This document shows positions 15,735 through 62,105 of a stretch of DNA of 64,000 nucleotides, piece after piece. The stretch's first letter is position 1, and each line of letters begins with the position of its first letter. The stretch comes from Acidobacteria bacterium Ga0077534 (GTDB lineage Bacteria; Acidobacteriota; Blastocatellia; Pyrinomonadales; Pyrinomonadaceae). The stretch covers positions 62,001-126,000 of the forward strand of contig LNEI01000004.1 of assembly GCA_001464455.1 (NCBI GenBank), read 5' to 3'. Position numbers and translations under genes: made by a program. Below the pieces are notes generated by a model, which saw nothing but the letters and a program-made list of their open reading frames with translations, searched no databases and was not told the DNA's origin.

Positions 15735-16059
15735 TGCGTCCCAAGATATATCTTGCGTCTGATAATAGAGATTATGTATTTTTTACGTTAGGCTAGAGGA
15801 GGTATATAAGATGCGTCCCAGGATCGTTTCGCTCGTGCTTGGCTCGTATCTCTTATGTTCGAAACAAGTTTTGCGTCCCAAGGTTTGGAGTGCACCTTCA
15901 GGTAGTGCGAGTCCGCTCGGATCATAAGCTGAAGCTGAACCTCCGGACCTTATGCGTCCCAAAATATTTTTTCGATCGTGCTTAGCACGAACCTCAGAAT
16001 GTGCGTCCCAGGATCTTTGAGTCTCGTTTCGAACCCATGCGACTATCTTGCGTCCCAAA
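15735..16059. repeat. Cluster of six TGCGTCCCA repeats plus one TGCGTCTGATAA
   Basis: TGCGTCCCA starts at 15735, 15812, 15872, 15953, 16002 and 16049 on the plus strand, always followed by A or GG (TGCGTCCCAAGATATA, TGCGTCCCAGGATC). Spacing is 77, 60, 81, 49 and 47 bases. The spacers differ but include small palindromes: AAGATATATCTT at 15744-15755 and TCGTGCT-T-AGCACGA at 15976-15990. At 15754-15765 lies TGCGTCTGATAA, the core of the second repeat family found in lptFG. The units are too short and too unevenly spaced for CRISPR. The cluster spans the 3' end of a broken gene. Confidence 0.85.
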
Positions 16060-34167: not shown

Positions 34168-35079
34168 ATGTTATCACTACGCGATGCTATTCGCCCGACA
34201 ACTTTCGTTAGGTCTTCAAAACTCTGCGATCATCTCGAGTTGGACCTAACCCTTGCGACGGAGACGTTCCAGCATACGGGCAGTTTTAAATTTCGAGCCG
34301 CCTATAACGTTGCTTCGAGTGTGGAGCAGACAGAGATAATTGCAGCATCGTCCGGCAATTTCGGCCAAGCCCTTGCTTATGCCTGCAAGTTGCTCGGCAA
34401 AAAATGTACGGTTGTCATGCCGGAAACATCGGCTCAGGTGAAGATCGACGCGGTTCGCGGCTTCGGAGCAACCGCCGATCTGATCGATGTAAAGAAAGTC
34501 GGCCGTGCCGACCGCGTGAGGCAGCTTGCCGCTGAAATGCCGAACGCGTATGTTGCCAGTGCCTATGACGATGAGTTCGTGATCGAAGGAAACTCGACTC
34601 TCGGTGATGAGCTATGTGGAAAGGGCTTTGACGCCGTGATCACCGCGGTCGGCGGAGGCGGGCTGATCTCCGGAATGATCAAGTCCTTTTGCCGAAATGG
34701 CGACCTATGTGAGGTGTGGGGAGCGGAACCGCAACCCGGAAACGACGCCTCGCGTTCGCTGCAGGCAGGCTATATCGTCGCAAATGAAGTCGAACCGCTG
34801 ACGATCGCCGATGGGGCCCGAACCGTTTCATTGGGTAAGCTAAACTGGGAGATCATCAAAGATGGTGTGGCCGGCATCATTGAGGTGCCTGATGAAACGA
34901 CGATCGAAGCCCTCAGGATGTTGTATTCACTTGCGAACCTAAAAACGGAACCGACCGGAGCGTTGAGTCTCGGAGCTTTGCTTCAAGATCGCGACCGTTT
35001 TCACGGTAAAAAGGTCTGTCTTGTGATTAGCGGCGGAAACGTTGATGCTTCAGTTTATGCGAAGCTCATTTCGGCTTAG
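34168..35079 (+). CDS. Threonine/serine dehydratase-like PLP enzyme (fold type II)
   Basis: The PLP lysine is in QHTGSFKFRAAYN (about residue 48), the substrate loop is ASSGNFGQALAYACKLLG (about 67-84), and the phosphate-binding glycine loop is AVGGGGLISGMI (about 168). About 303 aa, with no C-terminal ACT domain, so it resembles catabolic, non-feedback-inhibited dehydratases or serine racemases rather than biosynthetic IlvA. These enzymes deaminate threonine to 2-oxobutanoate or serine to pyruvate; which one cannot be told. Its 3' end overlaps the convergent gene by 14 bases. Confidence 0.85.
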   Translation: MLSLRDAIRPTTFVRSSKLCDHLELDLTLATETFQHTGSFKFRAAYNVASSVEQTEIIAASSGNFGQALAYACKLLGKKCTVVMPETSAQVKIDAVRGFGATADLIDVKKVGRADRVRQLAAEMPNAYVASAYDDEFVIEGNSTLGDELCGKGFDAVITAVGGGGLISGMIKSFCRNGDLCEVWGAEPQPGNDASRSLQAGYIVANEVEPLTIADGARTVSLGKLNWEIIKDGVAGIIEVPDETTIEALRMLYSLANLKTEPTGALSLGALLQDRDRFHGKKVCLVISGGNVDASVYAKLISA

Positions 35080-35761
35080 CGGCTTTTGAGGCTGTCTTCC
35101 GATAAATGCCCGAAAAGGAAACGTTCATTCCGCCGCAGTTGCCATTATCGGCGACCATGAGGTACTTCTCCGTGATGAGCCGCATGCTCGCCTTGCAGTC
35201 GTATTCGCTGTCTCCATCCGAATATTTGAGTGAGCCGTTTTGGTGACTTGCTCGTCCGTCGAGTTCGCCAATGTGAACATTGTCACCCAATCCCTGCCAG
35301 TATGAATCACCCTTTACATTAAGGATGTCTTTGGCACCCGATAAACTGAAATTGATCGTGCTGGTCGCATATTTCCATTCCCCAGTCCAAGTTTTTTCGC
35401 TCGCGTCATAAACGCTGGCCGGGAATTCAAGGTCGGCGGTCCTTAGCCAGCCAACCTTAACGCCGCCCTTCGCCGACGTAAACCATCCGCACGTGTAACT
35501 GCCGAACGCCCTGTTCGCTACAACGGTATCCCCCGCAACAACATAGGCAGATGTTTTGCAAGACGCTGAATTCGGGCAATCAGCTTTATCGTCCGAGTAA
35601 AATTTTGCCCTTTTCGACTTCACGACCGCGACCTTAAAATCCTCGGACTCGCGCGTGAACAGGCCTTCCCGGCACCAATTTTCGGGGCTTCCAGCGAGCT
35701 GGCCAAAAGCCGAGGTAACGAAGTACAAAGTGAATGCGAAAGAGAAAATTAGAGATTTCAT
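35066..35761 (-). CDS. Secreted protein with SH3-like region, function unknown
   Basis: A signal peptide (MKSLIFSFAFTLYFVTSAFG, cleavage before QLAG) precedes a mature domain of about 210 residues with at least six cysteines likely to form disulfides. VVKSKRAKFYSDDKADCPNS through GGVKVGWLRTADLEF resembles a bacterial SH3 domain. A second part (WTGEWKYATSTINFSLSG to MVADNGNCGGMNVSFSGIY) looks like a lipocalin-type beta domain. Start ATG 35761 chosen for the signal peptide. Periplasmic or extracellular. Confidence 0.65.
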   Translation of the reverse strand: MKSLIFSFAFTLYFVTSAFGQLAGSPENWCREGLFTRESEDFKVAVVKSKRAKFYSDDKADCPNSASCKTSAYVVAGDTVVANRAFGSYTCGWFTSAKGGVKVGWLRTADLEFPASVYDASEKTWTGEWKYATSTINFSLSGAKDILNVKGDSYWQGLGDNVHIGELDGRASHQNGSLKYSDGDSEYDCKASMRLITEKYLMVADNGNCGGMNVSFSGIYRKTASKAAKPK

Positions 35762-59430: not shown

Positions 59431-62105
59431 GTTCGGACCTTCGAAAGCAGGAAAACGCCGATAAAGGCAAAAATTGCCAGCGGCGACCAAACCGCAAGGA
59501 TCGGCGACAGCATAAAGCTCACGCCGGCTTGTTCAAAAACGGTGGTCGTCCCCGTGAAAAGAAGCCAGAGCAGGATCGCGTAACCCACGGTCGCCGCCTT
59601 GCCCTTTCGACTCAGGCTAAGAGCAAAGGGCGCCGTGAACAGGGCCATTACGAGCGGGAGAAACAGCGTTGCATACTTCTTTTCAAGCCCGATCTCGAGC
59701 GTGCGTTTCTCAAGATCGGAATCGACAAATTCGATCTGCCGCTTTATCTCACTTGTATCAAGATGATTTGGCTTCAACCGGCGCTCCGCAAACGGATTTA
59801 TGCGTTCCTCCAACACCGCTCCTGTAATGACCTGCGTCGAGATCTTGCCGCCAACGAGCTCATTTCGCTCAACGGGGCCGATGAAGCGAACATTACCCGC
59901 CGACCATTCCGCTAAATTTCCGCGGTACACGGCTCGCAATCTCTCCCCGCTATCGTCAAAATCGTATACGATAACGCTTTTCGCACAGTATGCAGGGCAT
60001 TCAGACGACGGTTTTTCGTTATCAGACGCAGGGATTAGCGCGGTAAAATTCAGTGTCAGCGGACCGACCATAGCCGGACGAAACTCATGGCCCAAAGCAC
60101 CAGATGCCTCTCGATTCTTTTCGTTAGCCTGGCTACTGGAGCGTACTTCGCGCTCGGAACCCATCACGCGATCGCCAGGCCTCCCTGAGCGATTTTCGTT
60201 ATCAGACGCACTTCCCTGTTCCGAGGCACTTGGATCGGCCACCGCCCCAATAATTGGCAAATCGAGCCGTTTTCCGTTATCAGACGCAGCTTCCCGCTCG
60301 CCGACAAAATCCGACTTAGCACCTCTTTCGTTATCAGACGCAGAGGCCGTTCTTTCTCGCTCGATCGCAAACCCGGCAGATGTCTTTTCGTTATCAGACG
60401 CAGCAATAAAATCAAATGAATAGATCCGCCTGTCGTTTGCCACCCAATACTTGCCCGCCGGAGCGACCGGCACGCCTCGATTGCGGATCAGCGATCTCGT
60501 CTCATCCTGAAGCCGGTTGCTCTGCGGCAGCAGCTTTTCCTGGATCAGCCAGTTCCCCCCTCCGATCACGGCCATCAGGAGAAAGCACGGAAACAGCAGC
60601 CGATAAACGCTCTGTCCGGCAGAGGTCCAGGTGACTATCTCGTTATTTCGCGACTTGATGACATAGGTTGCAAGCGTCCCGATCATAGCCGCCGACGGAG
60701 ATATTTGAAGGTAAACAAAAGGCAGCAAATAAAGGAGATAGGTGCCCAGCAGGGCTACACCGCCATCAAACGTGCCGGCAAATTTCCACAGTTCAAATGC
60801 GGTAAAGATAAGAAATATCGCCGCAAGAAACAGCAGCGTCAGGAGGAAGTTAAGCAGCAGATTCCATATCAGATCAAAGTCACGGAGACCAGTCGTAAGA
60901 TCCATGAAGAGATTTCGCCGCTGCACGTTTGGCCGCGAACGGGCAAGCCTCGACATCTGTGCTCTCATCCAGTCGATCCACCCGCGGACAAATTCGACTC
61001 GCCGCGACCAGTTAAGCCAGGCAATCGCACCGATACCGCCCAGAATAGGTATCGCACTGCTTGCGACCACGCCGATAGCACCGACCCGAGCGAGTTGTTC
61101 GCCAAGGAATGCTAGTAAATAGAAGCCGACCAGAACACCGAGAGCTGTCGCGATCGCAAATCCGCGGCCGCCGCGGTTAAATCGTAGGACGATCACGGTT
61201 CCTAGAAGACAGAAGATAAGCGGCGTTATCGAGAGGATTATCCTACGCTGCCACAGAATATTAGCCTCGGTCTGTTCGGGTCCGGTCTTGGTCGAAGCGT
61301 AGTCTGAAAGCTCCTGCAACCCGAGTTCCTCCGGCCGCAGCTCGGCGACCTTGAGCTTATCAAGCAGCTCATTTCGCCGGGTCTGTATGGCAAATCTGAC
61401 CTCGCCGATACTTTCGGTCACGTACTTGCCTGCTCCGGGCTGCAGCGGAAGTGTTGAAACAGTTGCATTTGCGAGCACGAGTTCCGACTGCTCACCTGTC
61501 AGATCGATACGCCCGTTGCGTGACGTTATCAGACGCAGGCTGTTATTCGGCTTGTCTTCGCTATAGATAAAGATGTTCTTCCAGGTGTTCGAATCAAAAT
61601 CGGCACCTTTGACATAGATGGTGTAGCCGTTGACCTGAGTATTGAAAACTCCGGGCTCCAAGGGCGATTCGAGCTTCTTTATCGCCGTTTGAAGAGCAAC
61701 GCTTCTGACCAGAGCCGCTGCGAGCGGAACGCCCTTCAGATTGACTAGAAACGCAAACCCGGACATCAGGATGCCAAGCAGAAGTATCGGTAAAGCTATT
61801 TGAAAATTGCCTACGCCCGAAGCCCGGATCGCGACCAGTTCGCTATCGCCCTGCATTTTCGTCAGGCCGATGATCGTGCCGACGAGCATTGCCATCGGAC
61901 ACGTAAACGCAACCACGCTAGGCAGAAGCGCGATCATTAGCTGCCAGATTAGCTCCGTTGGAATATTGGCGTCGAAGAATGTGTCTGAATAACGACTGGC
62001 TTGCTGAACAAATAAGATCACGGTCAGAAGGATCCACGAAAACAGGAAATAGGGGACCACCGACGTGATAAGGTACCGTGAAATTAACCAGCCAACCCGT
62101 TTCAT
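59427..62105 (-). CDS. LptF-LptG fusion permease of the LPS export complex, with repeat-built insert
   Basis: 892 residues with two complete LptF/LptG-type halves. The first (about 1-385) starts VGWLISRYLITSVVPYFLFS, has SELVAIRASG (about 89) and a periplasmic jellyroll. The second starts about residue 405 (LTTGLRDFDLIWNLLLNFLL) with SRNNEIVTWTSAGQS (about 490) and YWVANDRRIYSFDF (about 555). With LptB it pulls LPS from the inner membrane. Between RIYSFDF and SVIVYDF the second jellyroll is split by about 125 residues containing five in-frame ASDN copies. Typical LptF plus LptG together are about 720 aa. Confidence 0.9.
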   Translation of the reverse strand: MKRVGWLISRYLITSVVPYFLFSWILLTVILFVQQASRYSDTFFDANIPTELIWQLMIALLPSVVAFTCPMAMLVGTIIGLTKMQGDSELVAIRASGVGNFQIALPILLLGILMSGFAFLVNLKGVPLAAALVRSVALQTAIKKLESPLEPGVFNTQVNGYTIYVKGADFDSNTWKNIFIYSEDKPNNSLRLITSRNGRIDLTGEQSELVLANATVSTLPLQPGAGKYVTESIGEVRFAIQTRRNELLDKLKVAELRPEELGLQELSDYASTKTGPEQTEANILWQRRIILSITPLIFCLLGTVIVLRFNRGGRGFAIATALGVLVGFYLLAFLGEQLARVGAIGVVASSAIPILGGIGAIAWLNWSRRVEFVRGWIDWMRAQMSRLARSRPNVQRRNLFMDLTTGLRDFDLIWNLLLNFLLTLLFLAAIFLIFTAFELWKFAGTFDGGVALLGTYLLYLLPFVYLQISPSAAMIGTLATYVIKSRNNEIVTWTSAGQSVYRLLFPCFLLMAVIGGGNWLIQEKLLPQSNRLQDETRSLIRNRGVPVAPAGKYWVANDRRIYSFDFIAASDNEKTSAGFAIERERTASASDNERGAKSDFVGEREAASDNGKRLDLPIIGAVADPSASEQGSASDNENRSGRPGDRVMGSEREVRSSSQANEKNREASGALGHEFRPAMVGPLTLNFTALIPASDNEKPSSECPAYCAKSVIVYDFDDSGERLRAVYRGNLAEWSAGNVRFIGPVERNELVGGKISTQVITGAVLEERINPFAERRLKPNHLDTSEIKRQIEFVDSDLEKRTLEIGLEKKYATLFLPLVMALFTAPFALSLSRKGKAATVGYAILLWLLFTGTTTVFEQAGVSFMLSPILAVWSPLAIFAFIGVFLLSKVRT
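60012..60402 (-). repeat. Five in-frame TGCGTCTGATAACGAAAA repeats inside lptFG
   Basis: Reading the plus strand, TTATCAGACGCA ends at about 60402, 60342, 60288, 60210 and 60030. On the coding strand each reads Ala-Ser-Asp-Asn followed by Glu-Lys, Glu-Arg, Gly-Lys or Glu-Asn. Spacing is 20, 18, 26 and 60 codons, always a multiple of three. A sixth, degraded copy (coding-strand GCTAACGAAAA, residues QANEK) lies in the 60-codon gap. Spacers are different and rich in Arg, Glu, Gly and Ser. Confidence 0.9.
61524..61537 (-). repeat. Sixth TGCGTCTGATAACG copy, in a different reading frame of lptFG
   Basis: CGTTATCAGACGCA on the plus strand matches 14 of 14 bases of the repeat core but lies in the LptF half and is read Leu-Arg-Leu-Ile-Thr in the jellyroll strand NNSLRLITSRNGRIDLTGE, where such a sequence is natural. 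Confidence 0.75.

Follow-up and report, generated by a model that had tools for sequence, protein, structure and literature searches.

The question raised by this locus is why a fused lptFG gene should carry several exact copies of a short DNA word inside its coding sequence. The window, i.e. the whole stretch of 64,000 nucleotides analysed, contains this gene together with a dif-like site (Table 1). The first-pass annotation described five copies of a 14-mer in one reading frame, each encoding ASDN, and all five were found to be exact copies of TGCGTCTGATAACG in the LptG half on the minus strand, at the described spacing of 20, 18, 26 and 60 codons. A degraded copy was also claimed; by eye, the stretch near 60130 matches just the last ~9 bases. 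What had been overlooked is a sixth exact TGCGTCTGATAACG in the LptF half (61524-61537), read in a different frame (LRLIT). Allowing up to two mismatches, seven matches to the 14-mer were found in the window against a shuffle mean of 0.59, and none of 100 shuffles reached seven; the seventh match, at 15754, is the dif-like site. Allowing up to one mismatch, all six matches in the whole genome fall within lptFG. The window's genome has one further word of 13 bp, a variant in which position 6 is C, located ~9 kb past lptFG and outside the window (G000:C4:133001). Analysis of a structure model (mean pLDDT 53, weak) placed the LptG insert, residues ~568-703, between strands 560-566 and 708-716, with a pLDDT of ~25 across most of the insert. 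The nucleotide-level repeat, in frame and inside an LptG loop, was upheld as described, and the loop looks disordered in this weak model.

Table 1. Positions of the lptFG gene, the word copies and the dif-like site in the window.
Feature	Position	Strand	Basis or remark
dif-like site: T + left (XerC-side) arm GCGTCTGATAA, centre TAGAGA (6 bp), right (XerD-side) arm TTATGTATTTT	15754..15782	+	family dif pattern, one mismatch
lptFG fusion gene, 892 aa	59427..62105	-	Pfam LptF_LptG; carries the words
LptG loop insert, probably unstructured, residues ~568-703, five words, freely varying spacers	59997..60404	-	low-confidence model
word GCGTCTGATAACG read as ASDN	60017..60029	-	exact match
word GCGTCTGATAACG read as ASDN	60197..60209	-	exact match
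word GCGTCTGATAACG read as ASDN	60275..60287	-	exact match
word GCGTCTGATAACG read as ASDN	60329..60341	-	exact match
word GCGTCTGATAACG read as ASDN	60389..60401	-	exact match
word GCGTCTGATAACG, LptF half, other frame (LRLIT)	61524..61536	-	exact match; 12-base core in 28/39 same-genus genes scored

The lptFG gene is present in all 41 genomes of the window's genus (family Pyrinomonadaceae), and 40 genes, the window's included, were used for the same-genus comparison. This comparison with sister species, which had been proposed as a check, revealed an LptG loop with at least one SDN in 40/40 genes; loop length and spacers vary freely and the word is kept as DNA. In the LptF half, RLIT is encoded as CGT CTG ATA ACG in 28 of the 39 scored genes despite varying neighbour codons. 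A scan of 182 four-codon windows, in which the commonest peptide was common to at least 15 sequences, identified VRLI, ASDN and RLIT, all on the word, as the most uniform DNA (median share 0.14), and a single DNA string is used by 28 of the 33 RLIT-coders (CGTCTGATAACG) and by 94% of the 32 ASDN-coders. The ASDN word is kept by all eleven genes that lack the one at RLIT (G002, G003, G004, G013, G015, G017, G021, G022, G026, G032 and G034), with C at position 6 in G003 and G017. Since one word is kept in two frames (RLIT and ASDN), it is the DNA, rather than the peptide, that is conserved. The first-pass annotation had held that a 14-mer found nowhere else in the genome would be ordinary low-complexity protein sequence. 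The 14-mer is indeed found nowhere outside lptFG, yet the low-complexity conclusion fails, because it is the DNA of the word that is fixed among the genes encoding RLIT at that position. The LptF-half word also occurs in lptFG of other genera (G052, G060, G062, G066 and G077) and the LptG-loop word in lptFG of G088, likewise from another genus. The distance from lptFG to dif is 3-46 kb in 10 of 10 contigs compared.

Read letter by letter, the word GCGTCYGATAACG consists of dif's left, XerC-side arm with a CG after it. The site in the window reads TGCGTCTGATAA-TAGAGA-TTATGTATTTT, its left arm being the first 12 bases of the word; the six words in the window lie to the right of this site and all six point toward it. 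Dif-like sites with up to two mismatches were found in 37 of 41 same-genus genomes and in 113 of 147 relatives in all, and the reversed dif pattern gave ~16 matches in the same search of relatives. In G080, which represents another genus of the same family, there are 87 copies of the core GTCTGATAAC, the genome's own dif included, and four of the reversed pattern. Core orientation in G080 is uniform in 11 of 12 contigs, three of those with one copy only; on contig C19 the cores are all plus up to 105194 and all minus from 115826, and this switch holds a dif-form site, TGCGTCTGATAA-CAGATA-TTATGTAAAGC.

The words resemble dif in sharing the left arm over 11-12 bp, but differ from it in what follows, which is CG in the words and mostly TA in 53 dif sites (sites outside the genus, among the matches listed, that were judged to be dif). 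The right arm is absent from the lptFG and G080 words read, so these words are not dif sites, which comprise both arms and a 6-bp centre; an exception is the C-variant at G039:C377:12083, which runs on into a right-arm-like stretch. The variable positions are mainly 1, 2 and 6 in the 53 dif arms, and 1, 2 and 6, rarely 3 and 11, plus the last two bases in 107 words (up to one mismatch besides position 6 for the words and up to two for the dif sites). This agreement in the main variable positions of dif arms and words favours one reader for both, most simply XerC, as far as sequence variation can indicate it. Strict covariation between word and dif arm was not found by eye, and what the two share is a pattern of tolerated positions. 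The words keep GCGTCYGATAACG while the dif arms drift to GAGTCT (G060) or GGGTCT (G064 and G050), and this was counted against the main reading given below. In G100, G104 and G108, which we take to be Chloracidobacterium-like, the 11-mer GAGTCTGATAA is confined to the two dif-like sites of each genome, apart from one extra copy in G100 (C2:546968) that points toward dif. Mimicry of a tRNA-Ile anticodon arm, suggested by a CTGATAA resemblance alone, was considered for the word and dropped.

Analysis of word orientation revealed a consistent polarity. On same-genus contigs with both dif and a word, 55 of 55 words point toward dif (23 genomes, 3.3-46 kb away), all from one side of dif; those in the window's genome are 44-46 kb from it. 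In other genera, 51 of 53 words point toward dif (18 genomes, two of which, G095 and G118, are from another family), and the words occur on both sides (31/31 left, 20/22 right; binomial 3e-13). The counts cover the words on the chosen dif contig, namely 55 of 95 same-genus and 53 of 121 other-genus words. For genomes with more than one dif-like site (e.g. G033, G054, G057, G066, G076 and G077) the site on the word-bearing contig was taken, and the contigs G076:C176 and G046:C79, which carry second dif-like sites, were omitted. All but one of the 53 other-genus words lie within 78 kb of dif, the remaining one at 171 kb. The two wrong-way words (G052 and G088) lie past dif by ~8.7-8.9 kb, inside a gene judged by eye to be PQQ-type, and the one in G088 faces another word at 10.4 kb; one-mismatch words behave alike in G062, G066 (as a mirror image) and G056. 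In these genomes the facing words beyond dif thus converge on a centre that lies ~9 kb further on. Variant words carrying C at position 6 are found on the dif-bearing contigs of five same-genus genomes (G000, G003, G011, G017 and G030), where, by eye, they point toward dif; a sixth such variant, that of G039, does likewise. A single split point per contig fits 88 of 88 exact words on 19 contigs (2000 random draws: mean 67, maximum 78) and 130 of 131 words with up to one mismatch (random mean 95, maximum 108). Whole-genome counts in 46 genomes gave 121 words versus nine occurrences of the reversed pattern. Outside the genus, 27 of the 46 genomes with dif have words, which are hence not universal. 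In the 19 word-bearing contigs the reversed pattern was counted 0 and 3 times in 1991 kb, a biased control since these contigs were chosen for holding words. A DNA uptake sequence was also considered; the copies are far too few.

With respect to genes, the words (up to one mismatch; simple ORF calls) were located on the coding strand in 57 cases, on the template strand in 36 and between genes in 38, and therefore represent neither an mRNA nor a protein motif. Template-strand words occupy matching sites of a MutS-like gene in G057, G060, G066 and G080 and of an FAH-like gene in G054, G057 and G088, both gene names being presumed from the look of the sequence. The first-pass annotation had compared the lptFG repeat to the palindromic elements of Rickettsia, which are in-frame nucleotide repeats in protein loops, and had proposed a coding repeat that spread within the gene. 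The likeness lies in the in-frame position within a loop. The words differ in being polar with respect to the terminus, in recurring at the same sites across species and in not being dispersed through the window's genome, where they occur in lptFG plus one C-variant and no dispersal through many unrelated genes by mobility was found. The proposal of a spreading repeat was abandoned on two grounds, as the same two lptFG positions are kept genus-wide in two frames, and other genera have antisense and intergenic words of one chromosomal polarity, bar two exact copies.

Eight of 10 contigs, all but those of G000 and G026, show a GC skew that is positive left of dif and negative right of it, the signature of a terminus. 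Among the 19 word-bearing contigs, 12 are two-sided, and 11 of these have their cumulative-skew maximum in the interval bounded by the innermost facing words (expected 1.6; P 1.8e-11 under independence of contigs). Such P values are optimistic, given the relatedness of the genomes and the single gene neighbourhood common to the best-studied displaced centres. The skew switch lies ~9-12 kb from dif in several two-sided contigs. The facing-word interval of G062, G066, G088 and G056 is 1.4-1.75 kb wide and ~9 kb from dif, and on G055:C183, a contig without dif, the maximum near 35170 lies between words near 34255 and 35878; these five genomes share a gene neighbourhood and their independence is incomplete. 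In five of six genomes, with log-likelihood gains of 7.2 to 19.4, third-codon-position skew with gene strand as covariate assigned the DNA from dif to the word centre to the side of dif; the exception was G052, whose word centre was assumed from relatives.

Ten word-bearing contigs, nine of them two-sided, gave a gain of 7 log units or more in a free change-point fit. The change point falls inside the word interval in four of the nine (G060, G061, G077 and G095) and at most 0.3 kb from it in another four (G056, G062, G066 and G088). In G080 it misses the interval by 2.4 kb, with support beginning 0.4 kb away, and one exact word there thus faces the wrong way. The tenth contig, that of G052, has its change point at 50-53 kb, far from the words. 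Dif lies outside the change-point support interval in 8 of the 10 contigs. As for the weaker fits, those of G054 and G057 agree with the words, that of G055 has its best change point ~20 kb away and the words within its support interval, and in the one-sided G118 the skew switch misses the words. The gain is at most 2.5 in all five contigs of the window's genus, in which skew is too weak to place the replication end.

Genomes with no exact words near dif were also compared. The skew maximum lies at or near dif in G108 (-7 bp), G068 (+1.1 kb) and G069 (+1.2 kb), which indicates that a sharp skew switch does not need words; in G042 and G048 it lies away from dif. One-mismatch words are present near dif in G108 (three), G069 (two) and G042 (one), all pointing toward the skew maximum, and these genomes may carry weak words. 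Of 18 word-bearing contigs with dif, 14 have the left arm of dif itself directed at the skew maximum. Skew gauges the end of replication imperfectly, since according to PMC3317982 the skew shift of E. coli is nearer dif than Ter and, averaged over Tus-bearing genomes, is closer to dif than to the nearest Ter.

Overall, replichore polarity, nearness to the terminus, a word centre that tracks the skew switch and not dif, and the occurrence of words in all gene placements are fitted best by a polar, Tus-Ter-like replication fork trap built of half-dif words, in which GCGTCYGATAACG would be the polar terminus signal; we consider this reading moderately probable. Words on both chromosome arms (one arm only on the dif contigs of the window's genus) would each run 5' to 3' toward the fork meeting point. 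A protein bound to the word, perhaps XerC, would let pass forks arriving at the 5' side and would stop or slow forks arriving at the 3' (CG) side. We infer the blocking face from geometry, as a fork that has gone past the centre meets the words at their CG side. The innermost facing words would act as the trap that fixes the end of replication, near but not necessarily at dif. Opposed groups of sites with one orientation per replichore, as expected of a fork trap, were found in other genera, and a single group on the dif-bearing contigs of the window's genus. As lptFG lies near dif, its disordered LptG loop and RLIT stretch would be safe coding places for such sites, and this would explain the in-frame repeat.

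Several other explanations were weighed against the fork trap. The half-dif words might be guide or loading signs for chromosome dimer resolution by FtsK and XerCD, steering FtsK or concentrating XerC in the manner of KOPS. The word is, after all, the XerC arm of dif, its copies in other genera show the polarity (51/53) and closeness to dif (52/53 within 78 kb) reported above, and FtsK-gamma was found in all but one of 21 genomes (it is missing in G054, and the window's genome has it in weak and split form). We nevertheless judge this explanation rather unlikely. Canonical KOPS, GGGNAGGG, is already skewed on the same contigs, with 93 copies directed toward the centre and 20 away from it, so that FtsK seems to have its usual guide there. 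KOPS are short and occur genome-wide, and the words, although they share with KOPS the polarity toward dif, are longer (13 bp), rarer and mostly near dif. Moreover, the words do not always converge on dif: several genomes have the point of convergence ~9 kb beyond it, and words situated in the intervening DNA point away from dif (G052 and G088; with one mismatch G056, G062 and G066). Anchors of a terminus domain, similar to MatP/matS, or signals of another terminus process made polar through replication, such as completion of the RecBCD/Chi type, would account for several words per genome close to the terminus. The matS site is palindromic, and neither the polarity nor the bracketing of the skew switch is required of such anchors, which makes them improbable.

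Two further explanations were considered. The words could be footprints of elements that integrate at dif through Xer, or of strand-biased insertion, with no present function, and both the half-dif sequence and the way words cluster in G080 and lptFG, at short and variable spacing, would suit such remains. This is very improbable, as exact DNA is kept at the same codons across ~40 species, the template-strand sites in the MutS-like and FAH-like genes match in several genera, and both orientations occur around dif. That the repeat is a protein motif, a low-complexity insert or an mRNA motif of lptFG agrees with the position of the words on the lptFG coding strand in the window's genus, but is hardly tenable in view of the two frames, the identical codons and the template-strand and intergenic copies elsewhere. 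A captured-fragment or integron-like array, an sRNA target and a restriction or homing site were considered and dropped. As to proteins near the terminus, ParB, the gene of which lies beside dif, was rejected as the binder because parAB is also there in genomes without exact words (G042, G048, G068 and G069); matches to a parS-like pattern with three mismatches were found only in G060 and G054.

Compared with the Tus-Ter system of Escherichia coli and relatives, the proposed fork trap is alike in having asymmetric sites, several per terminus, that are oriented by replichore, are in part intragenic and, as judged by GC skew, bracket the end of replication. It differs in that the words are half of dif, in that no Tus homologue (PF05472) was found in 16 genomes with a positive E. 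coli control, and in that fork arrest is, for the words, a prediction; we also take the word to be unrelated to Ter. The RTP-Ter system of Bacillus subtilis is similar in its polar terminus sites in two opposed groups, but its sites are paired half-sites bound by dimers, and fork traps with Ter sites in open reading frames are known (both from PMC10331603). The genes tus and rtp are described as restricted to four clades in PMC6549158. In PMC3025954, which covers 16 phyla including Acidobacteria, dif is predicted for 641 organisms; the study reports a strong correlation of predicted dif positions with the skew shift, while its authors nonetheless argue that termination is not at dif and state that the search for Tus analogues in other phyla was not comprehensive. 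Where Tus and RTP are missing, a termination mechanism of unknown nature near dif is still considered possible in PMC3317982. Neither half-dif arrays nor a fork trap from Acidobacteriota turned up in our literature search, which excluded preprints and covered few subscription papers.

Described fork traps rely on Tus or RTP; other bacteria may also terminate at defined sites, perhaps with a part for dif (PMC3025954, PMC3317982). The word system makes termination at defined sites testable, as it offers a named word, a candidate protein and genomes with dif ~9-12 kb from the inferred end of replication. It is a possible, though doubtful, extension that Acidobacteriota have a third, independently evolved bacterial fork trap, in which XerC on half-dif sites would double as polar terminator and the left arm of dif would be the ancestral terminator and the source of the array. 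For the protein itself, the results suggest a way for a chromosome-level signal to shape a protein, here through a loop of more than 100 residues that would house DNA sites.

Analysis of the terminus contigs bearing a dif-like site revealed parB and parA no more than 10 kb from dif in 16 of 23 (for example, fetched loci L204 and L190). The usual position of chromosomal parAB is origin-proximal; the site of these dif-adjacent genes looks like the replication terminus. No good match to parS was found near them on the terminus contigs, and in the window's own genome (G000) parAB is absent from the dif neighbourhood. The FtsK-gamma domain of this genome is represented by two partial matches and looks split or truncated.

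The window's dif-like site is surrounded by six plus-strand copies of TGCGTCCCA spread over about 320 bp, and outside this cluster the same contig carries four further copies, all in minus orientation. TGCGTC is common to this repeat and to the word, the 13-bp polar sequence that probably marks the terminus.

Coordinates of the features analyzed
Feature	Genome and contig	Position	Strand	Loci
FtsK-gamma matches	G000:C10	249118-252018
TGCGTCCCA, six copies	window	15735-16057	+
Facing word pair	G033:C128	3640-3734		L112
dif and skew maximum	G108:C1	near 1443705		L227-L230

Comparison of the LptG loop across the window's genus (L040, L057-L095) showed it to be hypervariable, being short with one ASDN in some species (G035, G039) and longer than 100 residues in G000, G038 and G032. 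In the relative G033, two words about 80 bp apart face each other on a different contig from lptFG and are apparently intergenic.

Several dif-like sites were found in genome G076 (contigs C27, C122, C176 and others), and in G055 (C183, C344) the words converge at a point on a contig that lacks the genome's dif-like site; this pattern perhaps reflects a second replicon or merely a broken assembly. In genome G108, which is without exact words near dif, only 7 bp separate dif from the cumulative GC-skew maximum, and replication there may be ended by dif itself.
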